The notes under the pieces: model-generated
What the model was told of the DNA's origin: nothing
The model's database searches: none
The model's input: only the letters and a program-made list of their open reading frames with translations
Shown: positions 1-63,773 of the stretch, in pieces
Numbering within the stretch: the first letter of the stretch is position 1
Layout of the letters: every line of letters starts with the position of its first letter
Source of the DNA: Siminovitchia terrae
GTDB taxonomy: Bacteria > Bacillota > Bacilli > Bacillales > Bacillaceae_C
Assembly: GCF_003605405.2 (NCBI RefSeq)
Contig: NZ_QYTW02000019.1
Coordinates: 11,593 to 75,592, forward strand
DNA: 64,000 nucleotides
Direction of reading: 5' to 3'
Program-made: the position numbers and the translations under genes

Positions 1-139
1 ATCTCCTCTGAAAATCTGTGGCATCCGCCAGAGGCTTTAACTTTATTCAGCCGGGGTTTGCCCCCCCACAGAATGGAATACCAATAGGCATTCATCTGAC
101 TACATACTGAAGTAGGAGATTTCTGCTGAATGAAGTTAA
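1..139. repeat. Dispersed repeat family A, copy 1 (cut by window edge)
   Basis: This stretch matches the last about 140 bp of the longer copies at 34614-34808 and 63578-63773, ending in the shared terminus GCTGAATGAAGTTAA. The element has internal inverted repeats (TTAACTTTATTCAGC against GCTGAATGAAGTTAA). It carries no gene that I can support. The left part of the copy lies outside the window. Confidence 0.8.
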
Positions 140-145
140 ATCTTT

Positions 146-185
146 ATTCGAACAAAATATTTCATCTAAATTTATACTTTCTTAC
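146..185. repeat. Dispersed repeat family B, copy 1
   Basis: A 40-bp stretch starting ATTCGAAC and ending TACTTTCTTAC is nearly identical to 63475-63514. Both copies lie beside a family A element and immediately before a terminator hairpin, but on opposite sides of A. Its function is unknown. Confidence 0.6.
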
Positions 186-240
186 GCATAGAAAAAAATA
201 CACCTACTGAACGAGTCAGCAGGTGTATTTTTTTCTATGC
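186..240 (-). terminator. Long bidirectional terminator hairpin after the glutaredoxin-like gene
   Basis: Two arms of about 25 nt pair around a 5-nt loop with one mismatch. The inner stem is ATACACCT/AGGTGTAT and the outer part is an A-tract pairing with a T-tract, so it can terminate in both directions. The stop codon of the gene at 216-476 lies inside the hairpin. Confidence 0.85.
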
Positions 241-23051: not shown

Positions 23052-23208
23052 TATCAAATTCGCCTTGGCGTATTTGCGCCCAGATTTTATCGAGCTCCTC
23101 TCGATAAATTTCCGTTCAGCTGGAGTTTGAACCCCCACTGAATGGAATACCAATATGCATTCATCTCACCCCTTACAGAAGTCGGAGAATTCTGCTGAAT
23201 GAAGTTAA
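23052..23208. repeat. Dispersed repeat family A, copy 2 (internally deleted)
   Basis: It starts TATCAAATTCGCCTTGGCG and ends GCTGAATGAAGTTAA like the full copies. It lacks about 40 bp of the middle (the CTGAAAATCTGTGGCATCCGC segment and the first inverted-repeat arm). It sits between the ImmA-like gene and the integrase remnant, so it entered after the prophage or its ancestor. Confidence 0.85.
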
Positions 23209-28484: not shown

Positions 28485-28640
28485 CGTACGGCCGCCTCTG
28501 TGGCGTCGGCTGGTTCAGAGCATGACACCCTGTCGCTTCGCTTGCCCAAGTACTTCCTCTACAGCTACAGCATCAATACTCGGCACCCTGTCCATTTCAA
28601 TTATACTAGTATTTCCTGTACGCCGACGGACTGGAACACC
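28485..28640. repeat. Dispersed repeat family C, diverged copy
   Basis: The core matches the other copies: CACCCTGTCGCTTCGCTTGC then AGTACTTCCTCTACAGC, against GTCCTGTCGCTTCGCTTGC and AGTACTTCCTGTACGTC elsewhere. A second diverged piece of the core (TTTCCTGTACGCCG) lies about 60 bp further on. The rest of the 28164-28698 gap has no gene that I can support. Confidence 0.65.
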
Positions 28641-33781: not shown

Positions 33782-34591
33782 TCATTCATCATAACGAGCT
33801 TTTGCCAAACCTGCTTTTCTCCGGTATACCCAAAGAATCACCGCGCCGACTATCAATACAAGAGAAATGACCTGTGCCATTTTTAAGCCGCTCGTCAGCA
33901 TCAGGCTATCCATCCTCATTCCTTCAACAAAGAAGCGGCCGATTGAATAGAAAATCACATAAGATAGAAAGAGCTCGCCACGGTGCAAATTCACTTTTCT
34001 CAATAAAATCAGCAGGACAAATCCGATGATATTCCAAATGGATTCATAGAGGAACGTCGGATGGTAATAGGCGCCTTGTATGTACATCTGATTGATAATA
34101 AATTCGGGAAGGTGCATATTTTCGAGGAAGGCGCGGCTTACTTCTCCACCATATGCCTCCTGATTCATAAAATTTCCCCAGCGTCCGATCGCCTGTCCAA
34201 GGATGATACTTGGGGCTGCAATGTCCGCAATCTTCCAGAACGAAATCCCTTTGAATTTGGAAAAGACGATAGCTGTGGCAACCGCTCCTATGAGAGCGCC
34301 ATGAATGGCAATGCCGCCTTCCCAAACTTTTATAATATGCCCAGGGTTTTGAGAATAATAATCCCACTGGAAAATCACGTAATATATGCGGGCGCAAATG
34401 ATTGAAATTGGAATCGCCCATATGAGCAGATCAGGGAAAGTCTCTTTATCAAGGCGATGCTTGTTTCCCTCACGCATCGCAATATATAATGCCAATGCAA
34501 TGCCCAGGCCGATGATAATTCCGTACCAATGGACAGCAAACGGACCAATTTCTATAGCAATTGGGTTCAGCGGTTGAATATCCTGCTCCAT
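33782..34591 (-). CDS. lgt: Prolipoprotein diacylglyceryl transferase
   Basis: About 269 residues from the ATG at 34591 ([24 protein letters not shown]), aligning with B. subtilis Lgt; GGAG lies nine bases before it. The frame extends upstream into repeat A and codes there for repeat-derived residues that should be ignored. The Lgt signature [18 protein letters not shown] is near residues 137-154, with HxGLIGA-like [15 protein letters not shown] and seven membrane segments. It attaches diacylglycerol to the lipobox Cys of prolipoproteins such as those at 5048 and 53836. It is part of the hprK operon, with repeat A inserted in between. Confidence 0.97.
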
Positions 34592-34613: not shown

Positions 34614-34808
34614 TTTATCAAATTCGCCTTGGCGTATTTGCGCCCAGATTTTATCAAGCTCCACTCGATACATTCCTCTGAAAATCTGTGGCATCCGCCG
34701 GAGGCTTTAACTTTATTCAGCCGGGGTTTGAAACCCTACTAAACGGAATACCAATATGCTTTCATCTCACCACTTATAGAAGTGGGAGGCTTCTGCTGAA
34801 TGAAGTTA
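34614..34808. repeat. Dispersed repeat family A, copy 3 (full length)
   Basis: Full copy from TATCAAATTCGCCTTGGCG to GCTGAATGAAGTTAA, about 195 bp. Inverted repeats include TTAACTTTATTCAGC/GCTGAATGAAGTTAA, CAGATTTTAT against AAAATCTG, and GGCGTATTTGCGCC. It sits between hprK and lgt inside one operon. Its end forms the TAA stop codon of hprK. Confidence 0.9.
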
Positions 34809-35741
34809 ATCAAACTGGCTTTCTTCTTCCGTAATCACGTCGGAAAGTCTGTCAGCAAACTGCTCAGCCGCATTCATTCCCATTCTTTTCAAACGGAAAT
34901 TCATCGCTGCCACTTCGATAATGACCGCGAGATTCCGCCCTGGCCTTACAGGTATTGTTAATTTTGTAATTTCCGTATCAAAGATTTTGATTGTTTCTTC
35001 ATCGAGTCCGAGCCTGTCATACTGCTTTTCACCATCCCAGAATTCTAGATGAATCGTCAGCGTAATTCTTTTATACGGTCGGACAGCACCCGCTCCGAAC
35101 AACGTCATCACATTGATGATACCCAACCCGCGAATCTCCAGTAGATGCTCAAGCAATTCCGGTGAAGTTCCTACCAGCCTGTCCATATCGACTTGGCGGA
35201 TTTCAACGCAGTCATCCGCAACAAGCCTGTGACCCCTTTCAATAAGCGCAAGCGCTGTTTCACTTTTTCCCACGCCACTCTGTCCAGTGATCAGAACCCC
35301 AACTCCATATATCTCGACAAGCACTCCGTGAACAGCCGTTGTGGGGGCCAGCTTATTTTCTAGGTAATAAGTAAGCCGACTTAAAAAACCGGTTGTCTTC
35401 ATCTCTGTCCTCAAAACCGGAACCGAATGCCGTTCAGATACTTCAATCAATTCTTCGGGTATGTCCATTCCACCCGTTATAATAATGCACGGAGTAGAAT
35501 CAGTGCAAAGCTGCTCCATGCGATATCTTCTTTCGCCTGTCATGAGCATTTCCGTGAATTTCACTTCCGTACGCCCCAAAAGCTGAACACGCTCGGCCGG
35601 ATAGTAATGAAAAAAACCAGCAATCTCCAACCCGGGCCGGGAAATATCACTAGTCGTTATCGGTCTGTGAACCCCTTCCTCGCCACTGACCAGCTCCAGA
35701 TCGAATTCTTTGATGATATCTTCCGTACGAACTTTCGCCAT
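34806..35741 (-). CDS. hprK: HPr kinase/phosphorylase
   Basis: 311 residues. Walker [10 protein letters not shown] near residues 153-161, the HprK signature [22 protein letters not shown] near residues 200-221 and the C-terminal [26 protein letters not shown] are present. It phosphorylates HPr and Crh on Ser46 and reverses this by phosphorolysis, and so sets carbon catabolite repression. AAGGAGGGATTCC precedes the ATG. The last codons (EEESQFD) run into repeat A, which supplies the stop, so the native C-terminus may have been altered by a few residues. Confidence 0.97.
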
Positions 35742-52824: not shown

Positions 52825-53771
52825 TAATACTCCTCCCTAAAGCGCTTAGAGATCCATTGGGCAATGATGTTCATGAAGAGTGTAAAAATGAACAGCGCCA
52901 TTCCAACCGCATAAATGCTGTAGTAAATGGTGGAGCCATATGAAGCATCTCCAAGGCTCACCTGCACAATATAAGCGGTCATCGTCTGAATGGTCTCCGT
53001 CGGATCAAAGGTTAGATTCGGTTTTGAACCGCCTGCAATTGTGACGATCATCGTTTCACCAATCGCACGGGAGATCCCTAGAACACATGAAGCGACAATT
53101 CCGGATAACGCAGCAGGCAAGACTACTTTTAAGGACACTTCCAATTTGGTTGACCCCAGTGCCAATGCCCCTTCCCTCATGGATCGAGGAACTGAGCTCA
53201 TCGCATCTTCAGAAAGGGATGCAATCATCGGAATGATCATGATCCCAATAACAATTCCTGGACTTAATGCATTAAAAAACTGCAAGTTCGGTACAATTTT
53301 TTGCAAAAGAGGTGTTACAAAAGTTAAGGCAAAAAAACCGTAAACAATAGTCGGAATCCCGGCAAGGACTTCTAAAATGGGTTTCACAACTTTCCTGACC
53401 CGATCACTGGCATATTCACTTAAATAAATGGCTGTCGCAAGACCAATCGGAATCGCGACAATCATGGCAATCACAGCTACCAGCAATGTCCCCGAAACCA
53501 AAGGAGCTATACCATATTGAGGATCGGCTTCGAAAAACGGGAACCACTCTTTGCTTGTGATAAATTCTATTATGTTAACACGTTCAAAAAACGTAATTGT
53601 TTCCACTAGTAATGTAATGACGATCCCAATCGTCGTTAAAATAGAAATAACTGCCATTGTAAAAAGAAAAATGGGGACACATCTTTCAATCATCCCCTGC
53701 TTAAACTTAGACTTTCTTTTATTTTCTTCAATGAGTGCGGCAACTGATTTTCTTTCCGCTTTTAACTCCAT
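52824..53771 (-). CDS. pstC: Phosphate ABC transporter permease PstC
   Basis: 315 residues with six membrane segments. The EAA loop EGALALGSTKLEVSLKVVLPAALSGIVASCVLGISRAIGETMIVTIAGG near residues 198-246 marks the family. The N-terminus has a basic cytoplasmic head (RKSVAALIEENKRKSKFKQG). It is separated from pstS by a 64-bp gap with a strong hairpin. Confidence 0.96.
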   Translation of the reverse strand: MELKAERKSVAALIEENKRKSKFKQGMIERCVPIFLFTMAVISILTTIGIVITLLVETITFFERVNIIEFITSKEWFPFFEADPQYGIAPLVSGTLLVAVIAMIVAIPIGLATAIYLSEYASDRVRKVVKPILEVLAGIPTIVYGFFALTFVTPLLQKIVPNLQFFNALSPGIVIGIMIIPMIASLSEDAMSSVPRSMREGALALGSTKLEVSLKVVLPAALSGIVASCVLGISRAIGETMIVTIAGGSKPNLTFDPTETIQTMTAYIVQVSLGDASYGSTIYYSIYAVGMALFIFTLFMNIIAQWISKRFREEY

Positions 53772-61790: not shown

Positions 61791-61847
61791 ATAAAGCTAC
61801 CTTTGAATAACAATTTCCATATCAAGTTCTACTTTCTTTACTCATAA

Positions 61848-61891
61848 AAAAAGGATCATCCCGGTCAATTCATTAGATTGACTGGGATGAT
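61848..61891 (-). terminator. Terminator after the membrane protein gene at 61987
   Basis: ATCATCCCGGTCAAT and ATTGACTGGGATGAT arms (one mismatch) with a 7-nt loop. On the minus strand CCTTTTTTTATG follows. Confidence 0.85.
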
Positions 61892-63067: not shown

Positions 63068-63463
63068 CTTACCATAAGAAAAGCTCAAGGCGCCCGTTTA
63101 GCGACGTACAAACTGGAGCGATTCTGACGAGATAAAGGAAAACGAAGTGCGAGAGTGCCTGCTTATCGGCGACCAAGCATAAGACGAGCGCTGAAGAAGG
63201 CGTAGTTTGCCTTCAGCAGCGAATGGCTTATGACCTCGAGCCGATGGCACTCACAGCCAGACAACACGGCAAAGAATGCAGGCTCAAATCGCGACGTCCT
63301 GTCGCTTCGCTTGCATTAGTACTTCCTGTACGTCAGCAGGCTCAAACCGCGACGTCCTGTCGCTTCGCTTGCATTAGTACTTCCTGTACGTCAGAGCCGA
63401 TGTTGACTTATCGTAGGAAGAAGAGTGAAGTTTGCTAGTCGCTGGGCGCCTGGAGCCAGACAT
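63068..63463. repeat. Dispersed repeat family C, long copy with 58-bp tandem duplication
   Basis: It runs from AAGAAAAGCTCAAGGCGCC to GTCGCTGGGCGCCTGGAGCC. Inside it, GCAGGCTCAAA-CGCGACG through CCTGTACGTCA is present twice in tandem (63278-63335 and 63336-63393), identical apart from one base. The 71-codon frame across it is a product of the repeat, not a gene. Confidence 0.88.
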
Positions 63464-63474
63464 AGAAAAACTTA

Positions 63475-63514
63475 ATTCGAACTAAATATTTCATCTGATT
63501 TTATACTTTCTTAC
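63475..63514. repeat. Dispersed repeat family B, copy 2
   Basis: ATTCGAACTAAATATTTCATC to TACTTTCTTAC, nearly identical to 146-185. It sits between repeat C and a terminator hairpin. Confidence 0.6.
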
Positions 63515-63520
63515 TCTGTT

Positions 63521-63546
63521 AAAAAAGCCCCGCCATCATGCGGGAC
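63521..63546 (-). terminator. Terminator after the ccdA-like gene
   Basis: GTCCCGC and GCGGGGC arms around ATGATG, followed by TTTTTT on the minus strand. It is separated from its gene by the inserted repeat A copy. Confidence 0.8.
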
Positions 63547-63577: not shown

Positions 63578-63773
63578 TATCAAATGCACCTTGGCGTATT
63601 TGCGCCCAGATTTTATCGAGCTCCGCTCGATAATTTTCCTCTGAAAATCTGTGGCATCCGCCGGAGGCTTTAACTTTATTCAGCCGGGGTTTGAACCCCC
63701 ACTGAACGGAAACACCAATATGCATTCATCTCACCACTTATAGAAGTGAGAGATTTCTGCTGAATGAAGTTAA
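63578..63773. repeat. Dispersed repeat family A, copy 4 (full length)
   Basis: Full copy from TATCAAATGCACCTTGGCG to GCTGAATGAAGTTAA, in the same orientation as the other three. Its end supplies the stop codon of the ccdA-like gene. Confidence 0.9.

Follow-up and report, generated by a model that had tools for sequence, protein, structure and literature searches.

The repeat of about 190 bp that separates hprK from lgt in Siminovitchia terrae is probably a non-autonomous, PATE-like mobile element that works in the manner of IS200/IS605 and is moved in trans by single-strand transposition. It occurs in high copy number with sharp ends, a fixed left target, no target duplication and empty sites in related genomes; its orientation follows the replication fork independently of gene direction, its left end is IS605-like and its structure covaries. 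We infer a Y1 enzyme, its supply in trans and a single-strand intermediate. In this model a Y1 (HUH) transposase is provided in trans and would act on single-stranded DNA by recognising the folded ends of the element; the top strand would be excised as a single strand and inserted on the 3' side of TTTAA where the fork exposes the lagging-strand template.

The repeat unit and its copies

The unit consists of TTAA followed by about 190 bp with no gene inside and has the ends CTTCATTCAGC...CGCATTTGAT. Four copies are present in the window, that is, the whole stretch of 64,000 nucleotides that was analysed (Table 1). All four are real, as the preliminary description had claimed, and lie on the minus strand; the boundaries it gave for the hprK-lgt copy (34614-34808) were a few bases off and were moved to 34617-34809.

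Table 1. Features of the repeat and its neighbours in the window
Feature	Position	Strand	Basis and remarks
Copy 1	2..139	-	Cut by window start; TTTAA at left end; profile match and flank
Copy 2	23053..23208	-	156 bp, internal deletion; profile match
Copy 3 (hprK-lgt copy), body CTTCATTC...GAATTTGAT	34617..34805	-	Profile match; left boundary from S. fortis and S. fordii sites
Copy 3, target TTAA left of element body	34806..34809	-	TAA is the hprK stop; S. fordii and S. fortis sites
Copy 4	63579..63773	-	Directly 3' of the stop of the gene named ccdA in the preliminary description (TTTTAA)
Left-end hairpin with bulged T, CCTCCCACTTCTATAAGTGGTGAGA, IS605-like	34765..34789	-	Helix 2; resembles IS605-type left ends
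Stem P1 arm GCTGAATAAAGTTAA	34707..34721	-	Pairs with TTAACTTCATTCAGC at 34795-34809; helix 1
Right-end folded domain GCCTCCGGCGGATG...CGCCAAGGCGAATTTGAT	34617..34705	-	Helices 4-6; conserved in other-family copies
Right-terminal hairpin CAAATACGCCAAGGCGAATTTG	34619..34640	-	Alternative pairing to part of helix 4
hprK, upstream neighbour of copy 3	34806..35741	-	ORF and relatives; name from preliminary description
lgt, downstream neighbour of copy 3	33782..34591	-	ORF; probable ATG start by comparison; name from preliminary description

A genome-wide search for copies and their flanks, as had been proposed in the preliminary description, was performed with the left-end 19-mer at up to 2 mismatches. 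This resulted in 551 occurrences (307 forward, 244 reverse) in the 5.30-Mb genome, while a reversed-pattern control gave 0 occurrences. The count is one of left ends, truncated copies included, and at 190 bp each these would bring the share of the element to perhaps as much as about 2 percent of the genome. Profile matches numbered 81 in an 864-kb sample (400 kb of contig C1, 400 kb of contig C12 and the window, on contig C11), of which 65 were full length, so that both ends are sharp in most copies. A further 80 were found in 20 stretches on 20 other contigs (399 kb), so that the combined sample of 1.26 Mb holds 161 profile matches, among which any split copy may count as two.

The modal length including TTAA was 194, found in 59 of the 133 full copies for which both 20-base flanks were available. 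Mean pairwise identity within this set was 0.904, and identity to the nearest neighbour had a median of 0.954 and a maximum of 0.985. With no pair above 98.5 percent identity, the copies give no indication that a burst took place very recently. Copies with internal deletions but with both tips retained were observed at C12:386237 (L167), C12:247911 (L160), C12:84482 (L152) and C1:145193 (L135), and one of these four consists of the left-end part and the terminal hairpin. A second, AT-rich repeat (...TATACTTTCTTA...) was observed at window positions 138-197, 61793-61852 and 63467-63526, in two of the three cases near element copies; counted over both strands, GAAAGTATA occurs 40 times in 1.26 Mb.

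Relatives of the element were found by DNA search in 14 of 60 genomes (S. terrae included) and with a covariance model in 16 of the 60 at E up to 0.001. An order-wide scan with the covariance model gave matches in 18 of 299 genomes at E up to 1e-6, belonging to 9 of 117 genera and to six families, under stricter filters by which weak copies may be missed. This patchy spread suggests horizontal transfer of the element family. A plasmid collection contained one partial match and a phage collection no match to the element; among viral contigs the right-end pattern was present in 3 and the core pattern in 0. Three viral contigs hold copies, and two of them (L382 and L384) share surrounding ORFs. 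The latter two are phage-like, with an apparent integrase and an apparent repressor among their shared ORFs, and may represent a route by which the element spreads.

Target site, empty sites and orientation

The 133 full copies are preceded by TTTAA in 114 cases, by ATTAA, GTTAA or CTTAA in 11 and by otherwise deviating sequence in 8, and every base of the right end TTTGAT is conserved in 98-100 percent of them. Sites lacking the insertion were sought by joining the two flanks of a copy and searching the result in syntenic contigs of five genomes (G001-G005) and in named hprK loci. Interpretable empty sites were obtained at 7 loci, namely hprK and positions 53400, 55048, 56396, 59420, 78194 and 82654 of C12. 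In 6 of the 7 a TTAA-type tetranucleotide abuts the right flank in at least one congener, with no target duplication; none of the rows for C12:55048 was clean, and the junction is altered by changes or small indels in several further rows as well. C1_262601, C12_61837, C12_260077, the S. thermophila hprK row and the G004 row of C12_53400 were left out of the set as unreliable. The empty sites read (slash, junction) ...GTTTAA/ACGGGGGC for C12:82654 in G002, ...CTTTAA/GACACAATG for C12:59420 in G001 and ...ATTAA/AAATTTTATTC for hprK in S. fordii, and S. fortis has CTAA at hprK. Since the copy at C12:53400 and its empty site in G003 both have GTAA, the tetranucleotide belongs to the target. The congeners lacking an insertion, a comparison that had been proposed at the outset, place insertion 3' of the target without duplication, and together with the left flanks they bear out the earlier claim of a mobile element with a TTAA-type target. 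The claim of a MITE fails in the strict sense, as the element has neither terminal inverted repeats nor a target duplication.

Insertion precisely at stop codons, as had been described for the window, was found to be a modest excess and not a rule. The hprK gene ends in ...TTTGAT-TAA and the gene called ccdA in ...GGG-TTT-TAA, both with the TAA inside the left TTAA of the element, and these stops are the TAA of the target because TTTAA contains TAA. A hairpin and T-run follow 3' of the copy after the ccdA-named gene (read by eye from the sequence). Among the 123 full copies with two neighbour genes, 14 lie exactly 3' of a predicted stop. In the 864-kb set 10 of 65 copies did so versus 23 of 541 non-coding TTTAA sites on the same strand (odds ratio 4.1, p = 0.0013), the gene caller being a crude one that uses codon usage and has no start model. 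Tolerance, and not only preference, may underlie this excess. One of the 133 full copies lies inside a predicted ORF, a count that an interrupted gene would escape by appearing as two ORFs. The HprK protein shares 99 percent identity with its counterparts in 'Bacillus norwichensis' and Bacillus sp. HF117, and 96 percent with those in Siminovitchia fortis and S. fordii.

The orientation of the copies was compared to GC skew across the 1.26 Mb, and 154 of the 161 profile matches point along the replication fork, leaving 7 against it. The top strand of the element lies on the G-rich strand in 78 of the 81 matches in 864 kb and in 76 of the 80 on the 20 further contig stretches. On C1, where skew is negative, 36 of 37 matches are on the minus strand; on C12, where it is positive, 38 of 40 are on the plus strand; and in the window, again with negative skew, all 4 are on the minus strand. 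The same was seen in another genome (G032, main contig 5.49 Mb), in which 16 of 19 core matches agree with the skew and flip with it, 3 being against the fork; in 20 samples of that contig the skew was negative between 0.84 and 3.10 Mb and positive on either side, at 0-0.58 and 3.36-5.34 Mb. The fork direction is followed by 118 of the 123 full copies that have two neighbours, whereas predicted genes number 745 with and 191 against it. All 10 full copies whose neighbour genes are both oriented against the fork are themselves oriented with it (10 of 10), and in the 65-copy set, for which a gene caller was trained separately, 6 of the 8 copies with both neighbours antisense to the copy agree with the skew. 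Non-coding TTTAA sites are nearly equal on the two strands (541 and 576).

As the strand that reads TTTAA-element 5' to 3' is the G-rich, gene-rich strand, insertion is into the lagging-strand template. The shared orientation of the window copies is a replication effect: the earlier observation that all copies point the same way holds in the window and gives way genome-wide to both orientations, split by replichore. Orientation is set by replication and not by transcription, even between genes running against the fork, and hundreds of insertions that record the direction of the fork amount to an experiment on single-strand transposition carried out by nature. The orientation of IS200/IS605 members is stated in a review to recapitulate the direction of replication because the lagging-strand template is their target (PMC5371812).

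Folded structure, ends and candidate enzymes

A hand-typed consensus of the element folds far better than its shuffles (z -6.3 as RNA and -7.7 as DNA; 0 of 200 as good). Covariation was counted on 18 divergent copies without long inserts, in which the six helices, 52 pairs in all, are paired in 86.8 percent of cells. Changes on both sides occur in 13 of the 52 pairs, a number reached by 8 of 500 shuffles. The covariation score was 0.166 versus 0.128 in shuffles (0 of 500 reach it) and 0.055-0.073 with slid partners, the latter control somewhat favouring the structure as this was drawn from one copy. Helix 1 (P1) is paired in 88.2 percent of cells with changes on both sides in 4 of 15 pairs, and conservation extends to the right-terminal hairpin (87.9 percent), an alternative to part of helix 4. 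RNAalifold retained 8 pairs on 22 aligned copies, 4 of them with long inserts. In some other-family copies the stem CAGATTTTT/AAAAATCTG becomes CGATTTTT/AAAAATCG, shorter on both sides (read by eye). The covarying stems that the preliminary description had suggested looking for are present, and the fold and covariation tests fit RNA or single-stranded DNA alike. At 1959-2063 of locus L372 (genome G254) a deleted element was observed whose left stem, TTAATTTTATTCAGC / GCTGAATAAAATTAA, is changed on both sides relative to the consensus; a damaged Y1 gene is next to it, on the opposite strand and not overlapping it.

The left end matches a Clostridiaceae plasmid stretch at 91 percent over 43 nt, and that stretch then runs into a putative tnpB tail (read by eye, unannotated there). 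Reading by eye also placed the AGAAGTC-hairpin-GATGAAT layout at the left ends of tnpB elements in the S. terrae genome; tnpB elements L258, L262, L265 and L267 have the same left layout after TTTAAC or ATTAAC, with approximate boundaries. The suggested link to IS200/IS605 ends is thereby supported by left-end similarity to IS605-type elements at the level of sequence. The right end has no IS605-type right-end hairpin and carries a hairpin of other sequence.

The matching transposase that the preliminary description hoped to find did not emerge. No Y1 gene was found between element-type ends, and the profile gave only separate copies or fragments near tnpA and tnpB loci. The four PF01797 matches in the S. 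terrae genome correspond to one intact IS200 tnpA gene, two damaged or partial ones and one RAYT. The intact IS200-type tnpA at C12:346820 was considered as carrier and rejected, its ends differing from those of the element (read by eye). Within the genus the 4 of 6 genomes with copies are the same 4 that have PF01797 matches, and G002 and G004 have neither element copies nor a Y1 match; copy-bearing G030, G156, G276 and G023 gave no match to PF01797 (Y1). An internal GTTAA was also rejected as targeting guide, since 23 of the 26 copies with GTCAA in its place are likewise at TTTAA. Which protein moves the element is an answerable question raised by these data.

One answer, unlikely yet better placed than the other alternatives, is that the RAYT of the S. 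terrae genome mobilises the element, which would then be an unusually long REP-type element. This RAYT (TnpA-REP-like) is a single 189-aa open frame at C13:34510-35064 (L168, L124), and three genomes of the genus have it among the same neighbouring genes. At an identity of 71 percent or more, RAYTs occur in 5 of 60 genomes, S. terrae included, all 5 of which carry full-length copies, and a RAYT is present in the three genomes with the most first-look element candidates (603, 338 and 130). However, no RAYT match was obtained at E up to 1e-10 in copy-bearing G005 (16 matches), G030 (32) and G040 (8), and the RAYT itself scores 70.9 bits, below the curated cut-off of 80 for REP-associated transposases. 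It is directly flanked by GGGGGTCAGACCCCC-type palindromes, read by eye as likely its own REPs, while element copies are 0.8-0.9 kb off in G001 and G003, and the element ends are unlike REPs with a GT[AG]G foot.

The element was also considered as a source of RNA or peptide. A known ncRNA family matching the element, a possibility raised in the preliminary description, did not materialise: no Rfam family matched the window copies above gathering score, and three chance-level matches were obtained at E up to 10. A tRNA origin of the GGGGGTTCAAACCCC arm was rejected as ARAGORN finds none. The short peptide that had been reported is without sign of coding, although two window copies read it unaltered and another does so apart from a single change. 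When 114 ungapped copies from the S. terrae genome were compared, 1710 sites per codon position showed 74, 44 and 30 differences at positions 1, 2 and 3, the reverse of a coding pattern, and 9 of the 114 have a stop inside the 15 codons. Among 35 rows of divergent copies the phase differs in 7 of the 26 that could be placed, and 18 of 29 rows pass a loose peptide-motif test (2 had no recognisable end and 4 were set aside for length). On these codon-position differences and phase shifts the peptide was rejected as coding.

A complete Bacillaceae-1 RNA (RF01690), a separate Rfam family, was found inside four copies, of which G026 and G040, genomes of different families, have two apiece. All four matches share one internal position, run in the direction of the element and score 76.5-83 bits (gathering 35), and three matches in re-fetched loci had the same scores. 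The RNA replaces one arm of an internal hairpin (L047 and L056 in G040, L039 and L052 in G026). No RF01690 match at gathering score was obtained in two longer G130 copies and L331, nor was there any match in the short form of the element in S. terrae. RF01690 is described as a family of unknown function whose discoverers were not confident of its strand (PMC4333381) and is also entered in a table of PMC2864571; this orphan RNA family is hereby linked to a mobile element. An RF01690 match was observed at window positions 63267-63332 (+), on the opposite strand to the element copies, and similar 58-nt repeats near 28509, 61720 and 63336 fall below the Rfam listing threshold.

There is a slim chance, below that of the RAYT, that the element is a mobile structured-RNA gene: single-strand transposition would spread a conserved right-end RNA domain, with Bacillaceae-1 as optional module, that acts beyond transposition, for instance as a scaffold offering its 3' flank as guide to a TnpB-like nuclease that has TTTAA as motif. 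Very little weight is given to a reading in which the right-end domain is an omega RNA scaffold that makes use of a TnpB in trans, so that every copy would direct cutting at its own empty site beside TTTAA. A TnpB-adjacent motif TTTAA has been described (PMC11224200), the right-end domain is conserved between families and the genome has 12 PF07282 matches, but in the surroundings of 30 tnpB loci the profile picked up, at E below 0.01, no right ends apart from those of element copies or pieces of them, and the tnpB right ends, read by eye, finish in GGTTCA or TAGTTCAA-type sequence. Element copies or parts were observed close to tnpB genes of the S. terrae genome at L245, L251, L265 and L267.

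Spread via an RNA intermediate, by means of a reverse transcriptase of group II intron type or another kind, with the orientation arising from priming coupled to the fork, appears equally improbable. A bias towards one replication strand can also occur in group II introns that retrotranspose, and the fold is stable and covarying, but the Rfam search gave no group II intron match and only the three chance-level matches, the ends are sharp in most copies (65 of 81 matches full length) and the left end is like that of a DNA transposon. No more credible is a selected chromosomal signal or a 3' UTR regulatory RNA with an orientation of importance for the host, which would fit the strong fork orientation, the conserved structure and the near absence of copies from predicted ORFs (a gene broken by insertion escaping that count), but not the empty orthologous sites in congeners, the lack of a match in G002 and G004, the precise insertion after TTTAA or an orientation that follows the fork and not the neighbouring genes.

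Comparison with known systems

Four sequence words of the element had no relevant occurrence in the literature searched, one match being unrelated, and searches by topic gave nothing fitting among the matches listed (20 of 1,891, none of them containing Siminovitchia, and 12 of 295). The bcr1 and other Bacillus cereus repeats are likewise short mobile repeats of Bacilli, with up to 130 copies of bcr1, but are described as having TTTAT repetitions and belonging to the B. cereus group (PMC6542083); they are set apart here by description and not by sequence. ERIC-like high-copy MITEs also reach hundreds of copies and differ in being inverted-repeat elements, with no fork orientation mentioned in the passages of PMC10969869 used here. 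With 711 copies given for Photorhabdus in the same source, 551 copies are not in themselves unprecedented.

REPIN/RAYT systems are, as the element is, high-copy, palindromic and non-autonomous, and about 600 copies of REPIN-related structures are reported for Solibacter (PMC6006769). The element differs in its 190 bp as against the 20-40 bp given for REPs (PMC3733652), in its fixed 5' target and in not lying directly around the RAYT; copies neither flank a cognate RAYT directly nor occur consistently with one. The free-standing IS605 stem-loops described at lipoprotein gene 3' ends in Borrelia also have no transposase gene, are found in part at gene ends and are kept as RNA-type structures (PMC2775950), but are single stem-loops and not a two-ended unit of 190 bp, the likeness being one of description and not of sequence.

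With IS200/IS605 the element shares insertion 3' of a fixed short target that abuts the left end (TTTAA in 114 of 133), the absence of target-site duplication (7 empty-site loci, 6 of them clean), the hairpin layout of the left end and the orientation into the lagging-strand template that the review describes (PMC5371812), as seen in 154 of 161 matches and 118 of 123 full copies. A hairpin is present at the right end too, of a sequence other than the IS605-like one on the left. TTTAA is also the sequence reported to be recognised by TnpB of ISAam1, a member of the IS605 group (PMC11224200). The difference is that the element, 190 bp with no gene, has neither tnpA nor tnpB, hence no Y1 transposase of its own, and has another right end.

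The PATEs of Haloquadratum are described as IS605-related elements that lack terminal inverted repeats and target duplications, have palindromes close to their termini and are of insufficient length to hold a transposase gene (PMC3119063), and the element, non-coding as well, agrees with them in these respects. It differs in being bacterial and fork-oriented, in a right palindrome unlike the left one and unlike IS605, where PATE palindromes are alike at the two ends and to IS605, and in its conserved right domain of 90 nt. The same source gives 177 and 194 copies of 6 families in two Haloquadratum strains, as against about 551 of one type here. Filed in neither group because of its deviating right-end palindrome and the outcome of the transposase search, the element works like an IS200/IS605 element moved in trans and is closest to the PATEs.
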